Source: a candidate division LCP-89 bacterium B3_LCP (lineage in GTDB: Bacteria; Electryoneota; B3-LCP). From it: a DNA stretch of 64,000 nucleotides. Where the stretch lies: assembly GCA_005223185.1 (NCBI GenBank), contig NJBN01000001.1, positions 124,001 to 188,000 of the forward strand. The letters run 5' to 3'. This document shows, one piece after another, positions 4,797-42,566 of this stretch; position 1 is the first letter of the stretch, and each line of letters starts with the position of its first letter. Both the position numbers and the translations under genes were made by a program. The notes beneath the pieces were generated by a model. That model saw nothing but the letters and a program-made list of their open reading frames with translations. It was not told the DNA's origin and did not search any database.

Positions 4797-4938
4797 TGAC
4801 TAACGACAGATATCATGGTATCTGCTCATATTATAAGAAAAGCGTGATGATGCGCCGGATCACAGCAACGGTGAGATAATTTTCGTTCATTATATTATAT
4901 TGAAAATATTTTAGTTTTTCTTAAGATTGTGGGAGAGC

Positions 4939-5901
4939 ATGAAGGTCACATTTTGGGGAGTGCGGGGATCGCTGCCCAGCCCCCTAAGTCCCTCTGAAAT
5001 GCGTGACAGACAGAAGGAGCTGTTAGCTGCTATCAGGCAGGGTGGAATTCCTACTGCGCGAAATGAGGACAGATTTCTGGATGACGTCTCTGAATCGGCC
5101 GTATTGGTGGGAGGCAACACTTCCTGCGTGGAGGTGAGCTGTGGGGATGATAGGTTGATATTTGATGCAGGCAGCGGTATCAGGTTGTTGGGATGCCGCT
5201 TGATGGAAAATGCCTTCGGGCAAGGCGAAGGATTAGCGCGCATTTTCCTGTCGCATACGCATTGGGATCATATTCAAGGATTGCCATTTTTTGATCCTTT
5301 ATACGTACACGGGAACAGGATCGAGATTTATTCAGGTTTTACCAACATTTCTGATCGCTTGGAACAACAGCAGCGCAGGGAATATTTTCCCATACCGCTT
5401 CATGATCTGAAAGCGGATATTTCCTTTCATACAATAGTTCCGGAAATTCCCTTAGATTTCGCCGATATCAGTGATCAGACGCATCATTTGCGGGTTATTG
5501 TCCATGAACTGCAGCACCCCGGCGGCGCTTTTGGGTACCGAGTGGAATGCGAGACTGGGTGTGTTGTGTACGCCACAGATTCGGATTTCACCAGCAACGA
5601 TATTGAGGATATTAAGGACAACCTGGATTTCTTCAAAGACGCTGACGTGCTGATCTTTGATTCCCATTTCTCCTTTAAGGAATCCATTTTCCGCAGCGAA
5701 TGGGGGCATGCATCGGCTGCACTGGGAACCAGATTGGCGGCGTTGGCGAAGGTGAAGAAGCTGGTATTATTTCATCATTCACCTGAATACACTGACCGTA
5801 TGCTTAAAGAGCTGTTACATGAAGCGCAGATGCACAAATCAGGACCGTTTCCGCACCAGATCATTTTGGCACGGGAAGGTCTAGTACTAAATTCCTTTTA
5901 A
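4939..5901 (+). CDS. Metallo-beta-lactamase-fold hydrolase
   Basis: 320 aa from the ATG at 4939. GGGAG precedes it and the family N-terminus M-K-V-T-F-W-G-V-R-G-S begins there; an upstream TTG at 4927 only adds W-E-S. The zinc-binding motif H-T-H-W-D-H is at 106-111, preceded by G-G-N-T-S-C and D-A-G-S-G. A later D-S-D (about 214) and S-H-F-S / F-H-H-S segments supply the remaining ligands. This W-G-V-R-G-S subgroup includes PhnP-like and class II cyclic-nucleotide phosphodiesterase-like enzymes, so a phosphodiester substrate is likely but unproven. A 60-residue insertion between the N-terminal strand and G-G-N-T-S-C makes it slightly long. It appears to be a single gene. Confidence 0.85.
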   Translation: MKVTFWGVRGSLPSPLSPSEMRDRQKELLAAIRQGGIPTARNEDRFLDDVSESAVLVGGNTSCVEVSCGDDRLIFDAGSGIRLLGCRLMENAFGQGEGLARIFLSHTHWDHIQGLPFFDPLYVHGNRIEIYSGFTNISDRLEQQQRREYFPIPLHDLKADISFHTIVPEIPLDFADISDQTHHLRVIVHELQHPGGAFGYRVECETGCVVYATDSDFTSNDIEDIKDNLDFFKDADVLIFDSHFSFKESIFRSEWGHASAALGTRLAALAKVKKLVLFHHSPEYTDRMLKELLHEAQMHKSGPFPHQIILAREGLVLNSF

Positions 5902-5965
5902 TTCTCTCACGGGATATGTATTTCGGGTTATAAAGGTCGAATTTTTTTGGAATTTTATAAACTAC

Positions 5966-5994
5966 TTGACTTTCGGCGATAAAATTGTTAACTT
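5966..5994 (+). promoter_or_regulatory. Promoter of the Cys-tetrad protein gene
   Basis: TTGACT (5966-5971), a 17-base spacer ending TTGT, then TAACTT (5989-5994) followed by AT. The same arrangement with the same -10 is found upstream of the exported C25-like gene (42423-42451). Transcription would start near 6001-6006, at the beginning of the structured leader. Confidence 0.55.
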
Positions 5995-6005
5995 ATATAC
6001 ATTAA

Positions 6006-6184
6006 TATGGGGAGTCGGGGCGCATATCTCCTAATCAGGAGGAATAATAATAAGAAAGCTGTTCTAAGAGCTTCGAGAAGTCATTACACGATTAGGTTCT
6101 CCAAATGGTTAACTGGTATAAAGCAATGACCCATCGAGTTTACTTTAGAACAGCCGCAATCTATCGCCTTGATCGGGGACTCCC
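6006..6184 (+). ncRNA. Structured 5' leader RNA, candidate cis-regulatory element
   Basis: Three nested helices can form. P1 pairs GGGAGTC (6010-6016) with GACTCCC (6178-6184), which abuts the ATG at 6185. P2 pairs GCTGTTCTAA (6058-6067) with TTAGAACAGC (6145-6154). P3 pairs GTCATT (6080-6085) with AATGAC (6125-6130). A local hairpin CTCCT/AGGAG lies at 6028-6041. P1 would hide the bases just before the start codon, where a GGGG is the only Shine-Dalgarno-like run. This is the layout of a translational switch or thermosensor. It matches no riboswitch class I know. Confidence 0.5.
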
Positions 6185-7195
6185 ATGTTAAAAACGTTAA
6201 GAATTTTTACAATCTGTTGTTTCGCTATCGGGATCTTAGCGGGATTCTACCTCATTCCATCAGATGACGTTAACAGTGAACCTGAAGATTCGCCACTGTT
6301 CGCTGTCTCACTGGAAAACACTACCAATTATATTTCCGGAAAGGGTGGAACCGGTAGTTCACCTGATGGTTCTTCCGGAGGAATGACACCGTTGGTCACT
6401 TGCGAAGTAACTTGCGGCCCTACCTGTGCTCAGACCACCTGCGGAACAACGTGTGTCGAAACCTGCGAGTTCACCTGCTCAAATACCTGCGAACAAGCAA
6501 CGTGTAACTCAACGTGTTTGGCCACTTGCCAGACGACCTGTTCCAACACCTGTTCGCAGCCGACGTGCGAGAGCACCTGTGTCGTAACCTGTTCATATAC
6601 CTGCGAAGACCCCATCACGTTGATGTCATTCGGAGTAGGCACCAGCGGTAGCGATATAGTGGTATACTGGACTACCGGCAGTGAGGTTGACAACTACAGA
6701 TTCATAGTCTGGAAATCCCTCAACCCGGATAACGGATTTTACGCTATCGAAGAAGTGCTGAGTGCTGGTAACGGTGTAACCACGACTTCATATGAGTTTA
6801 CGGATAATGCTGTCCAACCCGGTATTACCTACTACTATAAACTGTCGGACATAAGCATTTACGGTTATGAGACCATGCATGCGACGGTCGCGTCCGCCAC
6901 GACGGGCATCGCAATTGAATATTGTCTGGTTGATAATTTCCCGAATCCGTTTAATCCGGTTACTACCATACGCTTTTATCTTCCCGAGACTTCACAAACT
7001 GAACTTACAATCCATGATATGAGAGGAAGGTTGGTAAACACTCTCGTTAATGGCGTAGTTAGCGGCGGTGTCATGCATGAAGTCATCTGGAACGCAACTG
7101 ACGACAGGGGAACTTTTCTACCGAGTGGGATGTATATTTACAGACTGACCGCTGGTGATCAAAGCGCCAGCGGTAAAATGGTCTTTATGAAGTGA
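6185..7195 (+). CDS. Exported Cys-tetrad repeat protein with FnIII-like and C-terminal sorting domains
   Basis: 336 aa. Residues 7-25 form a hydrophobic export signal, followed by a linker rich in Gly/Ser. Residues 72-140 are a repeat of tetrads with 17 Cys, every one preceded by Thr. The spacing is C-x3-C with an extra residue at three points, giving a 21-residue superperiod of five Cys. Residues about 145-240 resemble a fibronectin III domain (V-V-Y-W-T-T-G-S-E-V-D, then Y-Y-Y-K-L). Residues about 255-336 are a type IX-like sorting/FlgD-like domain (N-F-P-N-P-F-N-P, then S-G-M-Y-I-Y-R-L, ending K-M-V-F-M-K). It should be delivered to the cell surface. It has its own promoter, a structured leader and a strong terminator. 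The function of the Cys array is unknown; a rigid disulfide-stacked solenoid is a reasonable guess. Confidence 0.85.
   Translation: MLKTLRIFTICCFAIGILAGFYLIPSDDVNSEPEDSPLFAVSLENTTNYISGKGGTGSSPDGSSGGMTPLVTCEVTCGPTCAQTTCGTTCVETCEFTCSNTCEQATCNSTCLATCQTTCSNTCSQPTCESTCVVTCSYTCEDPITLMSFGVGTSGSDIVVYWTTGSEVDNYRFIVWKSLNPDNGFYAIEEVLSAGNGVTTTSYEFTDNAVQPGITYYYKLSDISIYGYETMHATVASATTGIAIEYCLVDNFPNPFNPVTTIRFYLPETSQTELTIHDMRGRLVNTLVNGVVSGGVMHEVIWNATDDRGTFLPSGMYIYRLTAGDQSASGKMVFMK
6398..6604 (+). repeat. Thr-Cys tetrad repeat array (in CDS)
   Basis: This encodes residues 72-140 with Thr-Cys repeated 17 times at 4-residue (sometimes 5-residue) spacing. The DNA is not a simple tandem repeat: codons and x residues vary, so the pattern is kept at protein level. 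Confidence 0.9.
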
Positions 7196-7234
7196 TCAAC
7201 TGGTCATAAACGGAAGCTCCTGAAGAATGCTGCG

Positions 7235-7267
7235 ACCATTATCCGGGGCGCCGGATAATGGTTTTTT
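7235..7267 (+). terminator. Rho-independent terminator of the Cys-tetrad gene
   Basis: ACCATTATCCGG (7235-7246), loop GGCG, then CCGGATAATGGT (7251-7262): a perfect 12-bp stem followed by a T run. It separates the Cys-tetrad gene from the C25 protease gene. Confidence 0.9.
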
Positions 7268-7297
7268 ATGTCCAAATTACCGTAGTTGAGGCGAAAC

Positions 7298-10200
7298 ATG
7301 CGAGGAAAACAGAATTTCAAAGCGATATATCATGTGATAGTTATCATCGGGTTGTTGTTGTCAGGATCTTCCCCCGTTTGGGGAGTGCCTGCGCCTCCGG
7401 GGATAACCTTAATATCATGTGACAGAGCCGGTGCAGTCGTAGAAATGCAGCTGCCTGAATATCAGATAACCGAATTAGACATGGTAGAAGGCATTTTCAA
7501 TGACGTTTCGATATTTGGCTGGGGAAGACTGGCTGAAGAGGGGAAACCAATGGTTCCACAGGCTGGTTTTCTGTTAGCAATTCCACCTGGTGCCAATACC
7601 AGTATCAATATTGAAGAGGTGCAATCGCAGACTATCGCGCTGGACAATCCACTGCCCGCACCTGGTTGGGAGACGGACGTCTTCATGAAGAACCATGTTG
7701 AGAAGCATTCTCCAATTGCTTCGACTTATAGTACGGGCAGCCCCTTTCCCCAATCCTGGGTGAGTATTGGGGAAGCAGCCTGGTTTCGCGGCTATCACGT
7801 AGTGCCGGTACGCGTAACACCGATTCGCGCTATTCCCAGTTCGGGTGAAGCCTTGGTAGCGGATAAAATCAGGTTCCGTGTTAATTTCAGTGGTGGCAGA
7901 GAGGGAGCGTATATCCATGATCCCTACGGTGAGACTACTGCGCAGAGTTCAATCCTGAATTTCACTCAGGCACGTAACTGGCAAGAGAGAACGCCGCCGA
8001 CTTCTACAGGAACGCAGGACAGTTATGGTGATTACAAGATACTGGTCGATCATGACGGTATGTACAGTATCACCTATTTTGACCTCGATCAAGCAGGAAT
8101 AACACCGGAGAGTATTGACCCCCAGACCATAAAAATCAGCGTTCAAGGTGAAGAGATACCAATCTGGATAGGAGGAAACGTCTGGGATGGCAGTTTCGAT
8201 CCGGATGATTATATACTGTTTTACGGCACTTTCGCGAGGGGGACCTATACTTATGAGTATCTATATCAGCATGAAAACGTATATTGGCTCGATTGGGGCG
8301 GATTAAATGGAGCGCGTATCGCGGATGAAAGCAGCGTGCCGATTGGTACGGAGGTCTCTTCGTTCAAAGCCAGAACACGGACGGAAGTGGATACGCTCTA
8401 TGAGATATTCGGTGACGTCCCTGAAGAGGAGGATGTGGACCACTGGATGTGGCTGAATTTGGACGCCACCTTCTACCCCCAATATTCTCATCTGCTGAAT
8501 TTGCCGGGGTTGGTTGTGTTGACTAACAAAAGTTACGATCTCATATCTTCGTTTCGGGGTTATACCATTGTTCAAGATCACAACGTCACCGTCGATTGGA
8601 ATAATTATCCGGCAATTGAGGCAACCTGGAGTTGGCAGGATTCTATCATAGTTTTCGGGTCTGTACCTGGGACTTACATAGGTGACGGTTCGCCTGCTAA
8701 TCCCAATGAATTGGTTTTTACAGCAACACCGGGTGAATTTAATTCATTCTACTTAGACTGGATCGAGATAGGTTACTGGCGGGGATATGGAGCGATTAAT
8801 GATACGCTGCTATTTCAGAAGCCGGAGGATTTTGCAGCTCAAACCGTCCGGTACAGGATCGGTGGCTTGAGTGATCCGGCGAATACGGAAGTGTGGAATC
8901 TGACCACTAATAAGAGAATAGTAAACCCAGATATTTTGGGGGATACTCTTAGTTTTGCCAATTATTCAACAGATGAAACCTACTATTTTGCGGCTGGACC
9001 CAGTAGTTGGATGACACCCCAGATAATAGAAGATGTACAGTCTGATTGGAGCAGCAGTAGTCATGGCGCTGATTACCTGATAATCACTCATGAGGATTTT
9101 TATGCTACCATGGAGGAATTTGCTGGTCACTACAATGACGCAGGAATGAGGGCGGAGCTCATAAAGGTTGGTGATCTTTATGACGAATTCACGTACGGTT
9201 TAAAATCGCCGGAGGCTATTTTTAGTTTAGTTCAGCATGCTTACTACAATTACCAATCACCGGCAGTATCCTATGTGCTTTTAGTTGGTGATGCATCATG
9301 GGATTACAAGGGCAACAATGCGAATTCGTACACAGATTTCGTCCCGACGCACTCCTTCCCAACTTACAAATGGGGTGAAACTGCTTCAGACAACTGGTAC
9401 GTTTCAGTGACTGGAAACGATCCTGTTCCTGATTGCGCTATAGGACGTTTCCCTGTGAATAATATTGACGAAGTTCAAGTTCTGGTCGATAAGACATCCG
9501 TTTACGCTGAGAGCGCACCACCGGGGTACTGGCGTTCGCGCATAATCTTCTCAAATGGTGCGAACGAACTAAGCGATGCTCTGGTCTTTGACTCGACGGT
9601 GGAAACTCTCTTGGACACCACTAATTTTCCTGAATGGTATGATCCTCCGCGCGTATATTCATTGCCATCGCCAGGTTATGAAGAATTCCAAGGGGATAGT
9701 ACCGACCTGATGGCGGAGATCGATCTGGGCGCGGCTATGGTAAATTACATTGGGCACGCCGGCAACGAGATGTGGTACACGTTGAGTGTGGACAACATTT
9801 CTCAGTTGGAGAACGGGGATAGGCTGCCCTTTGTAGTGTCGTTTTCCTGCTATACCGGTATCTTTTCGAATACTACCGGTATGGGTGAAACCTTCATCTT
9901 GAAACCGGAAGGGGGCGCGATAGCTTATTGGTCGAACGGAGCGATCGGATTTACGAATACAAATACATACATCAACCAATTCCTCTTTAGTAACCTGTAC
10001 AGTGATTACCCATCAAACCCTTACACATTTGGAAAGGCGACCACGGACGCTAAGCTGGATTTCTGGGCGCAGTGGTTGGGTGATCCTCATGACGTCATCC
10101 GCACCTTTGTCCTGCTTGGTGATCCCGGGTTGACATATCTCTGGGAGGATCCCAGTCCAGCGGATACTATTGGCAATGTGGATCCGGAGATAATATTTTA

Positions 10201-10846
10201 CGTGCCTGGATCTCCGCATTTCAGTTCAGGTGATTACATAGACAACCCGGTTGAATTCGGTTGCAGTATTTATGATCCTGATGGATTGGAATTGTCATCC
10301 TTACAGATGGAGCTGACACACTTAGTAGATGGAGCCGGAAATCCTGTCGATACTTCCTGGCAATGGATCTGGGAACCCGGTTCATCTGCACCGCCTGATT
10401 TCACCTTTGAATTGCCGGATTCCTTGGGTGACAGCCTGAGGATAGACTATAGCAATCTGTTGGGAGATGGTGAATGGTCATTCGATATGCAGATCGCCGA
10501 TTATTTTCTAAATGGTCCACAAACACTTAGTACAACATTTAGAACTGCAGGCGGCGAGTTGGTGATAGAGAACCCGTTAAATTACCCCAATCCCTTTACC
10601 AATGAGACCAGCATCACGTTCAATCTATCGCAAGATGCGGATGTTACCGTTAAAATTTACACTGTAGCGGGGAAATTGGTACGCGTGTTGGACGTCCCGG
10701 AAGTTGTCGGTTTTAACATTCACGAGTTTGATGGGCGGGATCACCAGGGTGATCCACTGTCAAATGGAACCTACCTTTATAAGATCATAGCCAACCAGGG
10801 CGATAAGAAGGTGGAAACCGTGGAGAAAATGGTGAAGATCAGGTAG
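7298..10846 (+). CDS. Gingipain-family (C25) cysteine protease with C-terminal sorting domain
   Basis: 1182 aa from the ATG at 7298, which has GAGGCG just upstream; the TTG at 7286 lies within that site. A signal peptide (about residues 8-28) leads into a propeptide-like beta-rich region. The C25 caspase-like domain spans roughly 590-960. His in Y-I-G-H-A-G (residue 820) and Cys in S-F-S-C-Y-T-G (residue 851) form the expected catalytic pair, 31 residues apart. Residues about 970-1085 are beta-sandwich-like. The C-terminal 90 residues carry N-Y-P-N-P-F and N-G-T-Y-L-Y-K-I and end K-M-V-K-I-R, a sorting signal as in PorU/gingipains. It may be a secreted protease or the PorU-like sortase that processes the other sorting-domain proteins here; PorU itself is usually about this long but lacks a sorting tail. 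Active by residue content. Confidence 0.88.
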   Translation: MRGKQNFKAIYHVIVIIGLLLSGSSPVWGVPAPPGITLISCDRAGAVVEMQLPEYQITELDMVEGIFNDVSIFGWGRLAEEGKPMVPQAGFLLAIPPGANTSINIEEVQSQTIALDNPLPAPGWETDVFMKNHVEKHSPIASTYSTGSPFPQSWVSIGEAAWFRGYHVVPVRVTPIRAIPSSGEALVADKIRFRVNFSGGREGAYIHDPYGETTAQSSILNFTQARNWQERTPPTSTGTQDSYGDYKILVDHDGMYSITYFDLDQAGITPESIDPQTIKISVQGEEIPIWIGGNVWDGSFDPDDYILFYGTFARGTYTYEYLYQHENVYWLDWGGLNGARIADESSVPIGTEVSSFKARTRTEVDTLYEIFGDVPEEEDVDHWMWLNLDATFYPQYSHLLNLPGLVVLTNKSYDLISSFRGYTIVQDHNVTVDWNNYPAIEATWSWQDSIIVFGSVPGTYIGDGSPANPNELVFTATPGEFNSFYLDWIEIGYWRGYGAINDTLLFQKPEDFAAQTVRYRIGGLSDPANTEVWNLTTNKRIVNPDILGDTLSFANYSTDETYYFAAGPSSWMTPQIIEDVQSDWSSSSHGADYLIITHEDFYATMEEFAGHYNDAGMRAELIKVGDLYDEFTYGLKSPEAIFSLVQHAYYNYQSPAVSYVLLVGDASWDYKGNNANSYTDFVPTHSFPTYKWGETASDNWYVSVTGNDPVPDCAIGRFPVNNIDEVQVLVDKTSVYAESAPPGYWRSRIIFSNGANELSDALVFDSTVETLLDTTNFPEWYDPPRVYSLPSPGYEEFQGDSTDLMAEIDLGAAMVNYIGHAGNEMWYTLSVDNISQLENGDRLPFVVSFSCYTGIFSNTTGMGETFILKPEGGAIAYWSNGAIGFTNTNTYINQFLFSNLYSDYPSNPYTFGKATTDAKLDFWAQWLGDPHDVIRTFVLLGDPGLTYLWEDPSPADTIGNVDPEIIFYVPGSPHFSSGDYIDNPVEFGCSIYDPDGLELSSLQMELTHLVDGAGNPVDTSWQWIWEPGSSAPPDFTFELPDSLGDSLRIDYSNLLGDGEWSFDMQIADYFLNGPQTLSTTFRTAGGELVIENPLNYPNPFTNETSITFNLSQDADVTVKIYTVAGKLVRVLDVPEVVGFNIHEFDGRDHQGDPLSNGTYLYKIIANQGDKKVETVEKMVKIR

Positions 10847-31108: not shown

Positions 31109-32584
31109 CTATTTCATCAACACCATCTTCCCAGTCCCTGTGAAATCACCGGCGGTCAGGCGGTAGATGTAGATGCCGGATGGTAAACCGGTGCCGTTGA
31201 AGGTGATTTGGTGGGTGCCGGGGGTGTATCTTTTGGGCGTTTCACGAAACGCCCCTACATTGCGGCCGTTAATATCAAACACATCCAGCTTCACTAAACT
31301 GGCAACTGGAAGGTCAAAGTTGATTGTGGTAATGGGGTTGAAGGGGTTGGGGTGAGCGCCTATCAGCATGAACTTTCCAGGAGTTTCCCGCTCCAATGCA
31401 GAACTTTCGACCGAAGTTCCCTCACTTTCAAGCCGGACTAAGTAAACACTGGTTGAGCCACCGGCGTAAGACCATTTTTCACCAGCAATGATATACCCGC
31501 CATCAACGGTCTGCTGAACACAGTGACCATATTCATTATAGCTGAAGTCACCTATGGTTTGACTCCACTGTTCAACACCTGAATCGTCGGTCTTGATCAG
31601 ATAGACGTCGTGTTCAATCCCAGTGCCGAATGAAATTGATCTACCAGCAACGATATAACCACCATCTGTGGTCTGTTGAACGCTTCGTCCCTCATCAGTA
31701 GAGTTCCCCCCGAAGGTTTGATTCCAATCTTGATTTCCCAATGCATCGGTCTTAATTAACCAGACATCAGAAGAGATACCAATGGCAAAGGAATCAGTCC
31801 ATCCCGTTATGATGTACCCGCCATCACTGGTTTGCTTAACGCTTCTACCTGTATCCTCATCGTCTCCACCGAAGGTTTGACTCCATAGTTCTGCGCCTGA
31901 AGCGTCGGTCTTAATCAAGAAAACATCCCAATCACCTGCCCCAGAAGATTCTGTGTATCCCGCGATAATATACCCACCGTCGCTGGTCTGCTGAACGCTA
32001 TAGGCCTTATCTTGCTCGTCTCCGCCGAAAGTTTGACTCCATAGCTCTATACCTGACGCATCGGTCTTTATTAGATAGACATTATAATAATCAGGACCAA
32101 AAGAAAGGGTCCACCCAGTGATGATATACCCGCCATCCGACGTCTGTTGAACACAGTAGCCATAATCATTTTGGCTTCCACCGAAGGTTCGACTCCACTC
32201 TTCATTGCCTGACGCGTCGGTCTTAATCAAATAGACGTCATTATTACCAGCGCCATATGTAGAGGTATATCCCGTGATGATGTAACCGCCGTCGCTAGTC
32301 TGATTAACGCTGTAGCCATAATCATGCTCGCTTCCGCCGAAGGTTTGATACCATAGCTGGTTACCGGAATCGTCCGTCTTGATTAAATATACGTCTTGCC
32401 AGCCAGCGCCAAAGGATTTCGTATTTCCTGCGATAATGTATCCATCATCACTGGTCTGCTGTACACAATAACCATAATCATCCCAACCTCCTCCGAAGGT
32501 TTGTTCCCAGAGGATGTCGGGTTGGGCAAAACTGATAGTGGATAGGATCAGGATAGAAATGATTGACATTGATAGAGTTTTCAT
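31109..32584 (-). CDS. Secreted seven-bladed beta-propeller-like protein with sorting domain
   Basis: 491 aa. After a signal peptide (hydrophobic 6-20, S-F-A-Q) come seven repeats of about 51 residues of the type W-x-Q-T-F-G-G, then D-G-G-Y-I-I-A-G, then V-Y-L-I-K-T-D. This predicts one seven-bladed propeller. The C-terminal sorting domain (N-P-F-N-P at about 410, S-G-I-Y-I-Y-R-L, ending K-M-V-L-M-K) has a REP-like cassette (31235-31258) encoding V-G-A-F-R-E-T-P-K in its middle loop. AAGGAG is upstream of the ATG. It has its own promoter and terminator. Likely cell-surface; ligand unknown. Confidence 0.87.
   Translation of the reverse strand: MKTLSMSIISILILSTISFAQPDILWEQTFGGGWDDYGYCVQQTSDDGYIIAGNTKSFGAGWQDVYLIKTDDSGNQLWYQTFGGSEHDYGYSVNQTSDGGYIITGYTSTYGAGNNDVYLIKTDASGNEEWSRTFGGSQNDYGYCVQQTSDGGYIITGWTLSFGPDYYNVYLIKTDASGIELWSQTFGGDEQDKAYSVQQTSDGGYIIAGYTESSGAGDWDVFLIKTDASGAELWSQTFGGDDEDTGRSVKQTSDGGYIITGWTDSFAIGISSDVWLIKTDALGNQDWNQTFGGNSTDEGRSVQQTTDGGYIVAGRSISFGTGIEHDVYLIKTDDSGVEQWSQTIGDFSYNEYGHCVQQTVDGGYIIAGEKWSYAGGSTSVYLVRLESEGTSVESSALERETPGKFMLIGAHPNPFNPITTINFDLPVASLVKLDVFDINGRNVGAFRETPKRYTPGTHQITFNGTGLPSGIYIYRLTAGDFTGTGKMVLMK
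31235..31258 (-). repeat. REP-like cassette inside the sorting domain of the 31109 gene
   Basis: On the minus strand GTAG (31258-31255) precedes GGGCGTTT with its complement AAACGCCC (8-bp stem, loop CGTG). The segment is translated in frame. The 32714 gene has the same cassette at the same place. Confidence 0.75.
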
Positions 32585-32615
32585 CTGGTTATCTCCTTAG
32601 GTGTGGCTAGTATCC

Positions 32616-32645
32616 ATAATATAAGAGGAATTTGATAGGAGTCAA
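32616..32645 (-). promoter_or_regulatory. Promoter of the beta-propeller gene
   Basis: TTGACT (32645-32640) on the minus strand, then TATATT (32623-32618, 16-base spacer) or TATTAT (32621-32616, 18-base spacer). Confidence 0.5.
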
Positions 32646-32660
32646 GGGGAAATGGATAAA

Positions 32661-32683
32661 GGCGACATATATGCCGCCTCTAC
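32661..32683 (-). repeat. REP-like element after the Kelch gene
   Basis: On the minus strand GTAG (32683-32680) is followed by AGGCGGCAT, an AT centre and ATGTCGCC. The T tract after it is short, so it is a weak terminator at best. Confidence 0.45.
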
Positions 32684-32713
32684 CAAATCGATAGTTTTCA
32701 CAAACCTTGGAAC

Positions 32714-34015
32714 CTATTTCATCAACACCATCTTCTCAATCCCTGTAAAATCACCTGCAGTGAGGCGGTAGATGTAGATACCGGAGGGCAGACCCGTGCC
32801 GTCGAAGGTGATCTGGTGGGTGCCGGGGGTGTAACTTTTGGGCGTTTCACGAAACGCCCCTACATTGCGTCCGTTTATATCAAACACATCCAGTTTCACT
32901 AAACTCGCAACTGGAAGGTCAAAGTTGATTGTGGTAATGGGATTGAATGGGTTGGGGAAGTTCTGGGATAGTTGAGAGCGAAAAGGGCTTACAATATCTG
33001 CCACCGGTTCCTGGATACCCAGATAATCCCCTCCGCCGAATGTCCAGGTCTGATTGTCATTATTTCCATCTAACCACCCACCGAACATAACGATATAACT
33101 TGATCCACCTACGTCGGTTTCACACATCCGATGTCGAGCTCTCAACCCAGGAGTCACCGAATTTGAATCGAGAGACCAGGCATTTTCACTGACATTATAC
33201 ACCCATGTATCTTCATAAAAACCACTTAAATATTCTCCACCAAAAAGGATCACCTGGTCGTCCCCCAAGTAGGACATTGCATGAGTTCGTCTTTGATGGG
33301 GAATTGGTTCAATTGGCTGCATATTCGTCCAGGTATTTGTAATTTTATCATAGAGCCAGGTATCGTTAATGTATCCACCACTTTCCTTAAGACCACCGAA
33401 AATTAGAGCCTGCTCTGTGCCTAACCGGGCGATCCCATGATAATGCCGCGCCTCCGGATTAACACCCACAGGTGTAACTTCGGTCCAAGTATTCTGGCTC
33501 AGATCGTATATCCAGGAATCGCCGAGATACCCAGAATTATTGGCGCCGCCATGCACGAACACCTGATCATCGCCGATATAACACATTACATGGGAGTATC
33601 GAACAGGTGGTGAACCCGATGATGGTATCATATAGGTCCAAGAATTGGTACTCAAGGTATAGAGCCAGGTATCGCCAATGGGGCCTTGGAGAAACTCGTA
33701 GCCGGCAAATAACAACACCTGATCACCGCCGATATAAGCCATATCGTGATCGCGAAGCGGAGCAGGGACAGTTCCTTCAGGATCCATGTTAGTCCAGGTG
33801 TTATCACTCAGATCATATAACCAGGTTTCGTTGTTGTAGGCTCCACTAATCTCACCACTGAACATCAGTACCTGATCTTCACCGATATAAGCCATGGCGT
33901 GACCCCACCGCTCTATAGGTAAGGGTTCCGGTGGGAATACCTGGGTCCAGTCGTCAGCGCAATATACCCCGGTGGCTACCATTATTGAAATTAATATTGT
34001 GATTGGAACTTTCAT
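32714..34015 (-). CDS. Secreted Kelch-repeat protein with sorting domain
   Basis: 433 aa. A signal peptide (hydrophobic 5-18, Y-C-A) precedes about six Kelch-like repeats, each with a G-D-D-Q-V-x-x-x-G-G type strand and an N-T-W-T motif (W-L-Y-D-L, then W-T-N-M). This predicts a beta-propeller. The sorting domain starts at N-F-P-N-P-F-N-P (about 357) and ends K-M-V-L-M-K; a REP-like cassette (32840-32863) lies in it. It starts 39 bases after the stop of the gene upstream, with GGAG before the ATG, so it may share the upstream transcript. Surface adhesin or binding role is likely but unproven. Confidence 0.87.
   Translation of the reverse strand: MKVPITILISIMVATGVYCADDWTQVFPPEPLPIERWGHAMAYIGEDQVLMFSGEISGAYNNETWLYDLSDNTWTNMDPEGTVPAPLRDHDMAYIGGDQVLLFAGYEFLQGPIGDTWLYTLSTNSWTYMIPSSGSPPVRYSHVMCYIGDDQVFVHGGANNSGYLGDSWIYDLSQNTWTEVTPVGVNPEARHYHGIARLGTEQALIFGGLKESGGYINDTWLYDKITNTWTNMQPIEPIPHQRRTHAMSYLGDDQVILFGGEYLSGFYEDTWVYNVSENAWSLDSNSVTPGLRARHRMCETDVGGSSYIVMFGGWLDGNNDNQTWTFGGGDYLGIQEPVADIVSPFRSQLSQNFPNPFNPITTINFDLPVASLVKLDVFDINGRNVGAFRETPKSYTPGTHQITFDGTGLPSGIYIYRLTAGDFTGIEKMVLMK
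32740..32826. repeat. 87-nt exact match to 34081-34167 (3' end of next gene)
   Basis: The segments at 32740-32826 and 34081-34167 are identical base for base. Both encode the end of the sorting domain and stop at the edge of the REP-bearing loop. Beyond that edge the two genes differ at once, suggesting gene conversion. Confidence 0.85.
32840..32863 (-). repeat. REP-like cassette inside the sorting domain of the 32714 gene
   Basis: GTAG (32863-32860) and GGGCGTTT/AAACGCCC, the same cassette as at 31235-31258, translated in the same frame. Confidence 0.75.
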
Positions 34016-34054
34016 AGTTCACTTCTCCATGGGTTATTTATCAAGGTGAATTTA

Positions 34055-35641
34055 TTATTTCATCAACACCATTTTCCTAGTCCCTGTAAAATCACCTGCA
34101 GTGAGGCGGTAGATGTAGATACCGGAGGGCAGACCCGTGCCGTCGAAGGTGATCTGGTGGGTGCCGGCAGAGTAGAATCCCGTAGTCGGGATCGCCCCTG
34201 ACCCCGACAAGGGCGAGGCATGCCTCGCCCCTACAAGAACCGCACAGCCGGAGATATCAAACACATCCAATTTCACCGGACCCGCGACCGGTAGATCGAA
34301 ACTGATAGTGGTTGTGGGATTGAAGGGATTGGGGAAACAGGAAGGCAACGCCCATTCATTAAGCAAGTATTCCTCTCGTGGATCAACAGCCGTTCCTTGA
34401 TGATAATAGTAACATCCCATATCCGCTCTCGTGCCATCCGGATCATCGTACATGGGGTCGGGATCTCCGGTATCTATACAAGGCGAATTTCCCTGCAGAT
34501 GATAATCACCCTGCGAGAAATTTACAAATGAAGGGTTATCGTCAATATTGCCTGTGCCAGACCAGCCGTCTTGACAATCAGAGTAGGTCATAGTAACAGT
34601 GGCACCAAAAACTTCGACCACTTGTTCCGGAGTATTTCCCCAGATAATGCAATTGACTAATACAGGGTTAGCGTTATCACTGTAAAGTCCACCACCTGTC
34701 GCAGCCTCATTGGCGACGATGGTAATTTTATTCATGATAAAACTAGTAGATTGGATACAGACGCCACCACCCCACATGGCAGCGAAATTCCCGCTGATTT
34801 CGTTCAACTCGAATAAGTTGGGAGATGATAGAAGGAATACTCCGCCACCGTGACCATTATTAGCAAAATTTCCGCTAATGATATTTTCACTAATGAATGG
34901 ATGGGTCCCAGAGTGGCATAAAATCCCACCTCCACTCGTGCCGGCGACATTTCCCTGAATCGTATTTCCGCTGATGTTGGGGCTGGAATTATTGGTAAGA
35001 TAGATCCCTGCACCGTCATTAGCAGAATTATCACTGATCGTGTTGTCGCTAATGGTGGGATTGGAAAGGGTCTCGCAGTAGATACCGCCGCCGTCATTTT
35101 CAGCATGATTTCCGTTTATCATATTACAATTTATAACGGGGCTGGAGTAATCCATACAAGCAATTCCACCTCCTTTATAGTATGCATGACAGGCATCGAT
35201 CAAACAATTTTGAATCGTGGGACTTGATTGACTGCAGTAAATCGCGCCACCGTATGCGTCCAGATAGTCTTCAACCGTTTGACCGTGTGTTAAATGGCAG
35301 TATTCCAATGTGCATGAGGAGGAAGCGTTTATGAAGTGAAGGCTGTTCCAGTTTACACCGGGAGTATATTCGTCGAAAAGAATTGAATCAGTCTCCGTTC
35401 CAGCAGCTATCAGCGTGGCATTATTGTCAACGATGAATCTGTAGAATTCCAGGAACAAAACTTTTACACCAGGATCGATAACTAATGTCTCCCCAGGCGG
35501 TACTCGTATTTCTCCATCAACCAGCACCGTATCTACCGACCAAGTTCCGGACACATCTCCTGAAACGTAGATCACATCAGCATATGAAAGAACAGCTTTT
35601 GCGATGATCAGGTAAATTACTAATGGAAGTAGCCTTTTCAT
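34055..35641 (-). CDS. Secreted right-handed beta-helix protein with sorting domain
   Basis: 528 aa. A signal peptide (about 3-20) precedes a parallel beta-helix (about 95-370) with coils of the N-x-I-S-G-N-x-A pattern (G-G-G-I-x-C, I-S-D-N-T-I, I-S-G-N), as in pectate-lyase-like and NosD-like proteins. No clear catalytic triad of acidic residues is seen, so it may be a binding protein. The sorting domain (N-P-F-N-P at about 440) carries two opposed REP-like cassettes in its loop, making this the longest loop of the five paralogues. Own consensus promoter; GGAGG before the ATG. Confidence 0.86.
   Translation of the reverse strand: MKRLLPLVIYLIIAKAVLSYADVIYVSGDVSGTWSVDTVLVDGEIRVPPGETLVIDPGVKVLFLEFYRFIVDNNATLIAAGTETDSILFDEYTPGVNWNSLHFINASSSCTLEYCHLTHGQTVEDYLDAYGGAIYCSQSSPTIQNCLIDACHAYYKGGGIACMDYSSPVINCNMINGNHAENDGGGIYCETLSNPTISDNTISDNSANDGAGIYLTNNSSPNISGNTIQGNVAGTSGGGILCHSGTHPFISENIISGNFANNGHGGGVFLLSSPNLFELNEISGNFAAMWGGGVCIQSTSFIMNKITIVANEAATGGGLYSDNANPVLVNCIIWGNTPEQVVEVFGATVTMTYSDCQDGWSGTGNIDDNPSFVNFSQGDYHLQGNSPCIDTGDPDPMYDDPDGTRADMGCYYYHQGTAVDPREEYLLNEWALPSCFPNPFNPTTTISFDLPVAGPVKLDVFDISGCAVLVGARHASPLSGSGAIPTTGFYSAGTHQITFDGTGLPSGIYIYRLTAGDFTGTRKMVLMK
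34182..34234. repeat. Pair of opposed REP-like cassettes inside the 34055 gene
   Basis: On the plus strand GTAG (34182-34185) with stem GTCGGG/CCCGAC (34185-34190 with 34203-34208). Then a perfect 20-base palindrome (34211-34230) followed by CTAC (34231-34234), which is GTAG on the minus strand. The head-to-head arrangement is like a BIME. The translation stays open. Confidence 0.75.
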
Positions 35642-35679
35642 TGTAACCTCCGTGTATATTTCGTATTGCCATTTTAGGA

Positions 35680-35708
35680 AATATAAAGAAATTTTGCGAC
35701 AATGTCAA
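35680..35708 (-). promoter_or_regulatory. Consensus promoter of the beta-helix gene
   Basis: TTGACA (35708-35703), 17-base spacer, TATATT (35685-35680) on the minus strand. Confidence 0.75.
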
Positions 35709-35727
35709 GCAGAGATATAACAATGAG

Positions 35728-35754
35728 AAAAATAGGCGAACTCGTTGGTTCGCC
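35728..35754 (-). terminator. Terminator of the sialidase-like gene
   Basis: Stem GGCGAAC/GTTCGCC (35754-35748 with 35741-35735) followed on the minus strand by TATTTTT. It is like the GTAG palindromes but lacks GTAG. Confidence 0.65.
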
Positions 35755-35787
35755 CATTTCATGTAATCTTTAAGCTGGTATTGGCGC

Positions 35788-38160
35788 TTATTTCATCAAC
35801 ACCATCTTACCTGTCCCGGTGAAATCACCGGCGGTCAAGCGGTAGATGTAGATACCGGACGGTAGACCGGTGCCGTTGAAGGTGATTTGGTGGGAGCCGG
35901 CAGAGTAGAATCCCGTAGTCGGAGTCGCCCCTGACCCCGACAAGTTAACCTTGCGCCCATTTATATCAAACACATCCAATTTCACCAGGCTTGCGACTGG
36001 TAACACGAAGTTGATGGCTGTGGTGGGGTTGAAGGGGTTGGGGTGAGCTGTGATATGAATCGATTCCATCTTCTGATGTTCTGAAGGGTTCGTTTCCACA
36101 AAAATGTAATTATCGCTGACCGGCCACTCTCCAGAAACATACTGATTCTCGCCAGATTCTATCTTTTCAAAATAGAAATTATCGAAAGCATAGACTGAAT
36201 CAGGGCAAAGTCCTGCGAAGATGTTATAAGAGTACACACCATCAGGCGCCCAGGAAGGGATAACCTGTGTTTTTGAAGTACTTACGAAATGCACGTTTGG
36301 GCCGATGCTGACATTGTATAACGGTCCTAACAATGGAGAGGTCTGTTGGCCGTTGGTTTTAGTTATCGTACTCCAGAAATCGAAGCTGTACGGTACAGCA
36401 GTACTGTTATCAGCCACGACTTGGAATTCCAAAACGCCACCCTCTGGCGGAATTTGTATTGTTGTGGTGTCCGGAATAACTTCCAATGTCAATGGCGCAT
36501 CGACACAGTATAAGGTGACATAAAGTTCCTGTGGTGTGTTCAGCGTGTAAGGTGCCATGATGGCTAGGGTATCGATATAGATTCCCTGCCCTGGCCAGGT
36601 TCCCCCGACAGAGATCATAACAGTGTCTATACCACCGGGATCTACAAAGCCTTGTTCGGGTTCCAGGAAGAGCCATTCTATATTTTCGTTGATGTACCAG
36701 GTCATGGTTGTATCGCCCTGATTCGATAGAACGAGGGGTTGTGGCGGTGGGATAGGATCCTGGTTGGGCGTCCAGACGAAAATGGGGATGGTATAACTGG
36801 TAAAAAGATGTGCTGTTGGAATCGCCCATCCGAAATAGCTATGGCCGGAAATGGTTCCTGTGTTAGAGCAGAAAGCACCGCCCCACCGGGGATTGATCCC
36901 GTCTTCAATGCATGCACTTGACCAGTTTGCGTACTCAGAAATATAACCTTCATAGATGATGCTGAATTCCCAGGCGCTGGTGGAGGACAAATTGAAATGA
37001 TTGTTGCGCATTGTTACATATCTTGTGATTTCTCCCCAGTATGACCTGTAGTGAAGCAGGATTGAGAAGAGGCCATCATCATTCGCCGCACAAGATGGAT
37101 ATACAAAACTGGTAGAGCCCCAGTTAAATTCGTACTCACTACTCCAGGTAACTCCACCATCATCGCTGTAAACATATCTCAGCTTGTCAGTTTCGATGGC
37201 CATTTTATTATAGGTGGCTAAAATATAATCCCCATACATACTGACAATACCGCCAGCATGATACCAGGTAGATAGTTCAGATGAGACAACCTGGGAGCTC
37301 CAGGGCCCGGATCCGAACGGTCCTTCTGATGTGGCAATCCGCACATTATCGAAATCTACGAGGCAGATAAAGATCATATCGTTACCGGGGCAATACGTGA
37401 TCCCATTGCCGGTATACATACTAAACGGGTGTGAATAGTCATGCGCTACAGTTGCCTCACCTGTCCAAGTTAAGCCGCTGTCCATACTGACTTTAAATTT
37501 TATATAATGCTCATCTGATTGTCCCATAGACCAGGCAGCATACAGATAAACACTTGATCCAGTGAAGTTGACTTCATCCGAAGTGAGTGATCCGTAATCG
37601 ATGTGCTCAGTGAACTCGTGAACAGTAGTAAATCCCGAATTTAAAGGATTACTGGGCTGGAACCAGAAGGCTTCCAAAGCGTATTCGCCTGAGCCCTCAA
37701 TGATATATAGAACATGGCAGCGGTCGTTCGATGAGATGAGTTCTATATCCTGAGCGAGAATCGCATAATCTTGGTTGAAAATGATTTGGACACATTGCCA
37801 GGGATCAGTTGATGGGTCGCCAGTGCTTTTATACACCTTCACATATTCGTGTGTGTATCCCAGTTCAGGGTTTGCTGTGACTACAGCGTAATAATCATCG
37901 TTTTCGCCACGTGATACAAAAGGATATTTGGAATTGTCATCGATGCTGGTGTAATCATCAAGTTCACCTGGCTGTTTGTTAACAACGATAGCCTGCACTC
38001 CGAATTCGCTGGAGTGATCATGTGGGTTCTCTGTCGAATTCATTATGTCGGTCGCTGCTTTTGTCTTTCTGTTCTTGTGTGGTTCATCTGCTAGCAGCGT
38101 AATTGGCATAAAAAAAATGATACAGTAAACTACTATTACCGATTTAGTTATAGCATGCAT
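35788..38160 (-). CDS. Secreted sialidase/BNR-like beta-propeller protein with sorting domain
   Basis: 790 aa from the ATG at 38160, which has AAGGAG six bases upstream and begins a signal peptide (V-I-V-V-Y-C-I-I-F-F); an ATG at 38175 would add five residues before it. About 60-430 is a propeller with Asp-box-like S-D-D-G-G-V-T-W and M-D-S-G-L-T-W, as in BNR/sialidases. Beta-sandwich regions follow (about 470-690). The sorting domain (N-P-F-N-P at about 700) contains one REP-like cassette. The gene starts 28 bases after the stop of the C25-like gene, probably in one transcript. Confidence 0.83.
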   Translation of the reverse strand: MHAITKSVIVVYCIIFFMPITLLADEPHKNRKTKAATDIMNSTENPHDHSSEFGVQAIVVNKQPGELDDYTSIDDNSKYPFVSRGENDDYYAVVTANPELGYTHEYVKVYKSTGDPSTDPWQCVQIIFNQDYAILAQDIELISSNDRCHVLYIIEGSGEYALEAFWFQPSNPLNSGFTTVHEFTEHIDYGSLTSDEVNFTGSSVYLYAAWSMGQSDEHYIKFKVSMDSGLTWTGEATVAHDYSHPFSMYTGNGITYCPGNDMIFICLVDFDNVRIATSEGPFGSGPWSSQVVSSELSTWYHAGGIVSMYGDYILATYNKMAIETDKLRYVYSDDGGVTWSSEYEFNWGSTSFVYPSCAANDDGLFSILLHYRSYWGEITRYVTMRNNHFNLSSTSAWEFSIIYEGYISEYANWSSACIEDGINPRWGGAFCSNTGTISGHSYFGWAIPTAHLFTSYTIPIFVWTPNQDPIPPPQPLVLSNQGDTTMTWYINENIEWLFLEPEQGFVDPGGIDTVMISVGGTWPGQGIYIDTLAIMAPYTLNTPQELYVTLYCVDAPLTLEVIPDTTTIQIPPEGGVLEFQVVADNSTAVPYSFDFWSTITKTNGQQTSPLLGPLYNVSIGPNVHFVSTSKTQVIPSWAPDGVYSYNIFAGLCPDSVYAFDNFYFEKIESGENQYVSGEWPVSDNYIFVETNPSEHQKMESIHITAHPNPFNPTTAINFVLPVASLVKLDVFDINGRKVNLSGSGATPTTGFYSAGSHQITFNGTGLPSGIYIYRLTAGDFTGTGKMVLMK
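35915..35941 (+). repeat. REP-like cassette inside the 35788 gene
   Basis: GTAG (35915-35918) with stem GTCGG/CCGAC (35918-35922 with 35937-35941). Nearly the same sequence as the first cassette of the 34055 gene, with a 2-base change, and in the same loop. Confidence 0.7.
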
Positions 38161-38188
38161 GATAAACTCCTTCATATATTCATTTTGT

Positions 38189-41100
38189 TCACTTCATCAA
38201 CACCATCTTACCGGTCCATGTGAAATCACCAGCGGTCAAGCGGTAGATGTAGATACCGGACGGTAGATCGGTGCCATCGAAGGTTATCTGGTGGGTGCCG
38301 GGGTTGTAGGGGCGGGTTTCGCCTTCGGCGTCCCAGCGGGACAAACCCGCCCCTACATTACGCCCGTTGATATCGAATACGTCCAGTTTTACCAAACTGG
38401 CAGAAGGCAGATCGAAACTGATGGTAGTGGTGGGGTTGAAGGGGTTGGGGTGGGTACTCAGTATCCTGAAATCTTCTGGTTGAGGAGGTGATGCGGAAAG
38501 GATTTCGCCATCGAATTCTTCACCTGTATTGAGCCACAGGGATACAGCATCTCCCGCGCCTGAACTCAATTTCGAGAAGTCGAAGCTATCGCTGTCCCAT
38601 ATAACGTCAGGGTAGGAACCGACATAGGCGTTATACAGGTAATCACCTGATGGCGCTAAAGCAGGCACGGATTGAGAGCGGTCTCGGTCAACGGACGTCC
38701 CAGCGCTTAAAGTGATGGTAACCGGTCCCAGAACCGGTCCGTAGGGAGATCCGTTGGGTAGGGTAATGTCACACCAGATGCCCAATGTCTGCGGTGAAGG
38801 TTCGTTGTTATCGACAGCGATGTTGAAATCGAAAGTGCCGCCGGACGTCGGAATCTGAATGGGTGTCCCGTAGGGGATCAGAGTAACGTTCACATCCGGT
38901 ACAGTTATGCCGTAATCGATGTCTGTAGTGAATTTAAGGGCGACACCGGCGGATAAAGTAGCTGAACCGGGCGTGTAGTGGTTGGCATAAGTAACCTTGA
39001 CGCCGTCCGACTGCTGCCAGTTTTCAATACCTATGGTGCAGTAGTTTTCATCCGCGTCGTAGTTCTGGAACTGATAATATTGGAAGATGATCTCACCGTC
39101 TCTGGTAGAGGTGGGATAGTAAGCTGGATCGTTCAGGATAACCTGAAACCAATTGTACCCGTAGCCGTCCAGGGTGCGGGCGTTCTTCCATTCTACGATG
39201 ACGCGATAGTTCATGAAGTCGTAGAAATAGTGCACCGAGCCGTTGCTGAGTATGAGATCGTCCCAGAAAGGAGCTATCATGGCAGGAGGTCCTAACGCTC
39301 CGGGGATGTTCCAGTTGCGGAAACTGATGTAGCTCTGGCTGCTACCCATGGATATCCAGCCGTTGGAACAGACTGTGATCTGGTTATAATCCTGTCCGTA
39401 GTACCGGAAGGTGAAGGGGAGATTCTGCAAAACGGAACAGTCGTCTTCATAGCCGTAGTCGGGGAGGCTCAGAGTTATCTGTCCGGGAACGGAGGAAATT
39501 TCCATCCAGTCATAAACCGGCGCTTGTTGGTACATGACGTCACGCGAATCGAAACAGCGGTAACCGTAGGCATCGGGACCTGCAGGATCTGCATCGGTGA
39601 TCTCTCCAACCAGGAAACTCACAATTAACGTATCGCAGTAAACGTCTGACGATACGATTAATTCCAGAGGCACCGTCCATCCGGGCGGGCAATTTTCGGC
39701 AGCTTCAAGAGTGAAAGGATCCCCGCTGTTTTCCGAGGAAGCTCCGGGCGTAATCTGACCCCAAGCACCATTGCCATCTGTAACCGTCAGCTTTTCATCC
39801 GGTGACGTTAAAGTGCCGATGCAATTAGACATGGTGACTCCACCGGAATTCAACAGAGTGATGGTAACGTCAGCGGTTTCGCCGGGTTGGATGATTCCGG
39901 ATGGGTTCTGGATGGCGTATTGATTCGCTTCTGCCAGAGGTGCAACCACAGGGAGATTGATCAAGTTTTCCCATGAACCCTGATCGCAGGCGGTTGTCAG
40001 GGAAACCTGAATGATGCGACTGTGAGGTGCTTCTTCCGAGAGAACTAAATTAAAGTCATCGTTCAACTGTGAAGTAGCGCCGGGAGAGGCGTCAGGGCCG
40101 TTCAGGGAGCTTTGGGTAATGACGAGATAAGGATCGGAAGAGTTTACCGTGCCGGTAACATTGGTGGCAGTCTGACTGGAACCGGTATTGGTCAATGTTG
40201 CCACCAGTTCAATGGTTTCTCCCGGGTTGACCAGAGCATCTCCGTTGCCGGACGATTCACCGGACATATCATCATCGATTACATATTGTTCCAGCCCCAG
40301 AGCAACAGCCTGCTGATTGATGGTCAGAGAGCCCTGGTAGGTATCCAGATTGTGACCTGTTACGGTTACTGTGTATGTTCCCTCCAGAGCATCCTCCAGA
40401 TCCAGCAGCAGGTCGCCGGATACGTCAGTCCAGCCGGTTATCTGCACGTTGTTGGCGCTGCTGTAAACGCAGACAAGTGCACCTTTCACTGGCAGATCAT
40501 GAGATTCAATGTTAATGGCAAAAGAATTGATGCCAAGAGGCAGAGTAGTCTCATGGGTAACCACGAGAGGTGAGGGAATTCCCGTCCACATTTCCAGACC
40601 GGGGTCGCCCAGGATGGTGTATATGTGGAAATAACATTCGACTGAGGAATTTGTGCTGCCTGATCCCTGGTTGTTGGGCATGCCGAAGTACAGTTCCATC
40701 AAGCCACGCAGGACTGCTGAACCAAAATTGCCGATACCTTCGGAGAAGATGCCCTGGTAGATACCACCATCTATGCAGTTGTTCCATCGTGTATGTGTGT
40801 AGAGGGAAGTGGGACCTACGAATCCCACTGCACCTTTGGGATTGGTTGTCGATCCATAGCGTATCCAGCCCTCACCGAAACAGGGATCACTGGAAGTGCT
40901 GGTGAAGTTGCCTCCACCGCAGACTATAGAGGTGATGATGGGTAGTTTCCAGCCGTTATAGAGGCTGGATATGTTGCTGGTGGTATAATATGGCGGCGTC
41001 CAGCATGAATAGGAACCGTAGCCGCGGTAGTTTACGAAGGTAACTCCATCGTTTATTTCATTATTGATATAGGGATAACCGCTGGAGTAGGGAGGATAGG

Positions 41101-42337: not shown

Positions 42338-42422
42338 ATATGCCCTCGTCTTGGATTCAGACCAATTGAAATTTTTCTCCTCTGAGCGAGCCGGATTAGA
42401 GAAGAGAACCAGCGAACATAAT

Positions 42423-42451
42423 AAGTTAACAAATAACAACCTTAATGTCAA
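42423..42451 (-). promoter_or_regulatory. Promoter of the C25-like gene (shared TAACTT type)
   Basis: TTGACA (42451-42446), 17-base spacer ending TTTGT, TAACTT (42428-42423), then AT on the minus strand. It matches the promoter at 5966-5994 in spacing, -10 and the TTGT before it. Confidence 0.6.
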
Positions 42452-42566
42452 GGGATTAATTATTTTACCCGAAATATTATTTTTGATACTTTTTCCCCTT
42501 CGTAGAGTCAAAGTGAATATTGTAATCGTACAGGTAATTTACCCCTCATTAAAAAAACGAAAATGT

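Follow-up and report, generated by a model that had tools for sequence, protein, structure and literature searches.

The gene at positions 6185-7195 of the stretch of DNA analysed here (64,000 nucleotides from the candidate division LCP-89 bacterium B3_LCP, hereafter the window) encodes a protein with 17 Thr-Cys (TC) dipeptides in one regular array. It is best explained, with a probability that we put at roughly one half, as a Sec- and T9SS-exported member of a wider family that would display this array at the cell surface as a compact, Cys-stiffened thiol module. The features of the locus are listed below (aa, amino acid positions in the 336-residue protein).

4927..5901, + strand: metallo-beta-lactamase-fold protein, upstream neighbour
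5966..5994, + strand: promoter-like element TTGACT-N17-TAACTT (TAnnTT), its form conserved upstream of all five orthologues
6185..7195, + strand: TC-array protein, 336 aa, open frame, with orthologues in genomes G002-G005 at 56-63% identity
6185..6277, + strand: signal-peptide/anchor-like N-terminus, aa 1-31, MLKTLRIFTICCFAIGILAGFYLIPSDDVNS, by sequence inspection (helix 2-22 in an AlphaFold2 model)
6290..6313, + strand: SPLFxxSL motif, aa 36-43, SPLFAVSL, common to TC-array proteins of other phyla
6398..6604, + strand: Thr-Cys array, aa 72-140, 17 TC dipeptides in three 21-residue units and two tetrads
6611..6904, + strand: domain between array and tail, aa 143-240, fibronectin-III-like by inspection only
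6938..7192, + strand: T9SS type A / FlgD-Ig-like C-terminal sorting domain, aa 252-336, by curated profiles
7234..7263, + strand: intrinsic terminator separating the TC gene from the PorU-like gene
7286..10846, + strand: PorU-family (peptidase C25) T9SS sortase-like gene (PF01364, E 8e-80)

Repeat unit and conservation of the array

The first-pass annotation of this DNA had placed 17 Cys, each preceded by Thr, at nucleotides 6398-6604, and both the coordinates and the count were exact on the translation: the array Cys lie at aa 73-140 and 17 of 17 follow a Thr. The recurrence of Cys every four, sometimes five, residues and the superperiod of 21 residues were likewise borne out. Successive Cys are 4,4,5,4,4,4,4,5,4,4,4,4,5,4,4,4 residues apart (13 spacings of four and three of five), the 21-residue unit can be written TC[E]xTC[AG][NP]TCxQ[TP]TCxxTCVx, and 21 was also the best repeat lag for the non-TC residues of the array (z 3.0 in the window, z 6.1 in the G005 orthologue). 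When the array's own residues were shuffled 100,000 times, at most 12 TC dipeptides were obtained. Across three units from each of the five orthologues, unit position 12 is Gln in 15 of 15 cases and position 20 is Val in 14 of 15. The whole protein contains 20 Cys, the three outside the array being at aa 11 and 12, in the signal-type N-terminus, and at aa 247, near the C-terminal domain. A recent DNA duplication or a microsatellite was rejected as the origin of the array, since at a lag of 63 nt only 11 of 30 comparisons between repeated residues agree at the third codon position, and no 63-nt tandem array was detected. The units are old at the DNA level, and their synonymous positions show no repetition.

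Whole-genome searches yielded orthologues from four further genera of the host's family (G002-G005). The 17 Thr, the 17 Cys and the exact spacing are kept in all five proteins, so that the odd number of array Cys pointed out at first pass holds in each of them; the Cys spacing, whose loss in homologues would have spoken against the first-pass proposal, is identical in G002-G005. Across the five orthologues, identity is 61% over the remaining 35 positions of the array, and 55-56% of codon comparisons at the conserved Thr and Cys show a difference. Because Thr and Cys are kept at 100% against 61% elsewhere, with their codons differing to this extent, the comparison indicates that purifying selection is acting on the Thr as well as on the Cys. 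A survey of 39 genomes from the phylum located the array pattern in five of the six genomes of the host's family and nowhere else. Since the sixth (G001) has no array, the array is apparently not essential. Genome G003 also contains a second, divergent TC-array gene (L028 1-782, G003:C179) with some Ser-Cys pairs; its neighbourhood differs, and the gene is cut by the contig end.

Genomic context and predicted surface display

The TC gene looks like its own transcription unit, because a promoter-like element and a downstream hairpin accompany it at all five loci, the hairpin being terminator-like in the window and having counterparts after each of the four orthologous genes. The support for the element is comparative, and a generic consensus scan did not list it. 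From the element to the start codon there are 219 nt in the window versus 108-128 nt in the orthologues. The 5' leader (6009-6184, + strand) has a strong predicted fold (-58.8 kcal/mol, z -3.4; arms GGGGAGTC...GACTCCC), is single-copy in the window and was not seen in the orthologues, and a search of positions 5800-7400 gave no Rfam match; it may represent a recent insertion or act as a cis-regulatory RNA. The metallo-beta-lactamase-fold upstream neighbour is the same in G002 and G004 and different in G005. A PADLOC search returned no match. Directly downstream of the TC gene, the PorU-family gene is found in all five genomes; in the window it scores 307 bits with NF033707, below the cut-off of 420.

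The C-terminal domain of the TC protein scored above the cut-offs of three profiles, TIGR04183 (37.6 bits, cut-off 23), PF13860 (29.6, cut-off 27) and PF18962 (27.3, cut-off 27), and in the PDB it weakly matches the C-terminal domain of PorU (6za2, E 8e-5). The domain at aa 143-240 had no Pfam match and is common to many T9SS cargo proteins of the same genome, which match the query over about aa 140-336. About 150 matches to the query were obtained in its own genome, nearly all to the tail, and a plasmid search matched the C-terminal half and the T9SS tail only. The N-terminus is hydrophobic, as judged by inspection only. The surface display predicted at first pass thus gains support, and a surface location is by inference well supported, because the signal-type N-terminus, the sorting domain above its cut-offs and the adjacent PorU-family gene in 5/5 genomes point the same way. 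In its N-terminal signal-like segment, C-terminal sorting domain and adjacent PorU-family gene the protein resembles T9SS type A cargo (TIGR04183 / PF18962 / PF13860), whereas no described cargo domain that was found includes the TC array or the SPLF motif, and TC-family members elsewhere use other C-termini.

Elsewhere in the window (31109-42511, - strand), five adjacent T9SS cargo genes have near-identical C-terminal-domain DNA (for example, 96% over 112 nt), and the tail of the gene at 34055-35641 contains an extra stretch, VGARHASPLSGSGAIPTTGFYSAG. This cluster suggests gene conversion together with an inserted repeat element.

Array proteins in other lineages

A species collection was scanned for five consecutive TCxx tetrads, and microsatellite frames were removed by repeat diversity. 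Most matches, and nearly all of those on viral contigs, turned out to be microsatellite frames that overlap longer ORFs, and these were dropped. After this filter, true array proteins were retained from Bacillota (L052 and L091), Clostridiales (L067), Coriobacteriia (L095) and a Theionarchaeon (L059), the last with eight array genes. L335 is a complete version of the Coriobacteriia protein L095, and L361 is a second Coriobacteriia member. The first-pass suggestion that T-C-x-x repeat proteins with sorting tails be sought in related phyla led to array proteins, but with other C-termini: S-layer homology (SLH) in L067 and L091, CWB2 in L095/L335, and no recognised domain in L052 or in the archaeal proteins tested. 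While the Bacillota and Coriobacteriia members resemble S-layer homology and CWB2 proteins in carrying such C-termini, these domains only anchor; the TC array and SPLF motif lie N-terminal to them as extra elements. Apart from the member itself, searches among the relatives of the Bacillota member returned only weak matches, most of them interrupted or of low complexity, and searches among the relatives of the Theionarchaeon returned no array match. Two matches among the relatives of the Coriobacteriia member (G242 and G197) had no TC-array ORF and were discarded, leaving L361 as the sole true addition.

The array proteins of Bacillota, Coriobacteriia and the Theionarchaeon have in common a post-signal motif, [ST]PL[FY]xx[SR][LMV], whose core [ST]PL[FY] lies at aa 29-54, directly after the signal-like segment, in 16 of 16 proteins measured. 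The core occurs in one of 274 background signal-like ORFs. Among 3,549 distinct ORFs the full motif was confined to 22 sequences, all TC-rich, some of which duplicate a gene in shortened form; this set is not independent, the loci having been collected for their arrays and the motif having first been noticed in them. Cys is preceded by Thr or Ser at 42/42 positions in L052, 25/26 in L335, 27/28 in L361 and 24/25 in L067, the archaeal arrays being somewhat less strict. Array length ranges from about 6 to at least 42 T/S-Cys dipeptides, and the superperiod is 21 in the window's family, 12/18 in L067/L091 and 4/20/24 in the Coriobacteriia protein L361. Because the superperiods differ between lineages, the dipeptide and the SPLF motif, rather than one coil length, appear to be the constant parts.

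No entry covering the array was found in Pfam, NCBIfam or the PDB, and no described Thr-Cys tetrad surface family was found in the open-licence literature. The TC-array proteins thus seem to form an undescribed family, defined by the SPLF motif and T/S-Cys arrays on varied anchors. The case for homology across phyla consists of a short motif and an array of low complexity, and the members may instead have converged.

Two further observations were made in these loci. On the minus strand of a phage contig (L192, IMG/VR 3300027759_002344), a 358-residue ORF, tail-like by inspection, carries TTYQTCYNTCYNTCYDTCYQTCYTTCYDTC; it has a separate SCNPY repeat and no SPLF motif. Adjoining the Bacillota array gene, L091:1944-2606 (- strand) encodes a lipoprotein-like product with a C-terminal zinc-finger-like stretch, CDACRGLGYELG...CAKCNGMG, which matches DnaJ_CXXCXGXG at E 3e-4, below the cut-off.

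Fold and cysteine chemistry

The narrow beta-solenoid proposed at first pass agrees with the regularity of the array, which has a coil-length period of 21 residues with ladder positions; the unit-phased Gln and Val are what stacked coils would show, which is suggestive only. Structure prediction, named at first pass as a check, did not establish this fold. When the full protein was modelled by itself, AlphaFold2 placed strands in the array at a mean pLDDT of 39; the array modelled together with four distant relatives came out helical, at a pLDDT of 48. The two models are contradictory and of low confidence, and they neither confirm nor refute a solenoid. The differing superperiods would be odd if one coil geometry were essential.

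The first-pass comparison with Thr-Cys antifreeze helices found no sequence support. The insect antifreeze beta-helix of the Tenebrio type is built of 12-residue TCTxSxxCxxAx coils; the TC array resembles it in its regular Thr and Cys and in a possible stacked coil, but has no TxT faces, and its 21-residue unit holds five TC. Neither the 12-residue repeat nor a match to a solved antifreeze structure was found, and a PDB search with the window array returned no chain at E<=1. A PDB match obtained with a cross-lineage profile, the 28-residue peptide LF1 (7yrv, E 0.36), was taken as chance.

Disulfides in the array are plausible outside the cell. However, disulfide stabilisation is not a safe assumption, because no VKOR-type disulfide machinery was found in the 39 genomes of the phylum and the Cys number of exported proteins in the window is often odd, as are the 17 Cys of the array.

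Proposed role of the array

In the reading that we prefer, the protein would be exported by Sec and T9SS, and its array would be displayed on the cell surface through the C-terminal sorting domain. Throughout the family, (T/S)-Cys dipeptides at mostly 3-6-residue spacing would be carried by whatever surface anchor the host possesses. The array would form a compact repeat rod, in this lineage most likely a 21-residue stacked coil, with its Thr and Cys on opposite sides, and would be stiffened by Cys chemistry, either disulfides or metal-thiolate bonds, giving a robust thiol-bearing surface module. The function is placed in the array itself because the members share no other function-bearing domain. 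A broader and decidedly tentative reading is that of a cross-domain surface family in which the SPLF motif, acting like a leader, directs a shared chemistry or folding on the T/S-Cys dipeptides, so that a chemically stabilised rod of tunable length could be built on any anchor (T9SS tail, SLH, CWB2 or none recognised). That one motif and one dipeptide are kept while all else changes suggests that the members have a step in common at the outer surface, be it folding, modification or binding. A module so sharply defined, recurring on different anchors in distant lineages including an archaeon, could turn out to be a novel protein rod, a surface array of metal thiolates or a new class of modified peptide.

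Alternative explanations

Free thiols on the surface of an anaerobe might bind soft metals or clusters, which would make the array a metal-thiolate domain whose capacity scales with its length. The wide variation in array length with the dipeptide kept, the invariant odd Cys number and the lack of VKOR in the phylum all agree with this, but the CxxxC spacing is not a classic metal motif, Thr would not be needed as a ligand, and no metal-related neighbour gene was seen, and we regard this explanation as unlikely. A disordered linker of low complexity, whose many Thr and Cys would have no specific role, is a very improbable reading of the array: the composition is of low complexity and the AlphaFold2 confidence is low, yet in five genera the 34 Thr/Cys positions and their exact spacing are fully conserved while codons change, and Gln is invariant at unit position 12. 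Another chemistry that could act on the array is YcaO azol(in)e formation at the T/S-Cys pairs, or lanthionine formation. The strict dipeptide of the array, a hydroxyl residue followed by Cys, resembles the substrates of bis-heterocycle formation of the microcin B17 type; no enzyme of either kind was noticed among the neighbour genes, and we give the idea hardly any weight.

The array protein could also be a RiPP-like precursor, in which a maturase would read the SPLF motif as a leader and link Cys to Thr or another neighbour by radical-SAM thioethers, before or around export. A conserved motif ahead of a Cys/Thr-rich core resembles a leader-core layout, and Cys-Thr thioethers have been reported in SCIFF peptides (PMC8326336). 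Two radical SAM/SPASM maturases adjoin one Theionarchaeon TC gene, their best NCBIfam match being CefB (NF038107) at 128 and 116 bits, but these scores are far below the cut-off of 600 bits and maturase neighbours were found at this one Theionarchaeon locus only. The array weakly matches TIGR04117, a Cys-x-x-x radical SAM target, with 15.5 bits (9.6 bits for the whole protein) against a cut-off of 50, and the best score in its own genome for the partner maturase, TIGR04115, was 60.8 bits against a cut-off of 350. TIGR04117 targets and the Cys-every-fifth RiPPs of CefB systems share with the array a regular Cys spacing of about 4-5; they are small peptides, whereas the TC proteins are signal-bearing and mostly surface-anchored. 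No maturase was present among the genes inspected near L052, L067, L091 and L095 or in the window, and none of the 39 genomes of the phylum has a CefB maturase above the cut-off. Radical-SAM maturation was set aside for this lineage: at E<=1e-12, none of G002-G005, four of the five TC-bearing genomes, yielded a radical SAM/SPASM match of the CefB type, and the CefB-like enzyme tested from the window's own genome (G000, L176) has no counterpart in the phylum. For the array proteins overall, such a precursor seems distinctly improbable.

Some radical SAM loci were recorded as observations in their own right. The window's genome contains two further maturase-like loci, G000:C7:387257-388702 (L176) and G000:C4 at about 22.5-26 kb (L177), one beside a 186-aa ORF and the other containing three consecutive radical SAM genes; they may be unrelated RiPP clusters. 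Between the two radical SAM maturases that adjoin the Theionarchaeon array gene lies a 263-aa ORF (L327 1784-2572, + strand) with no Pfam or NCBIfam match.
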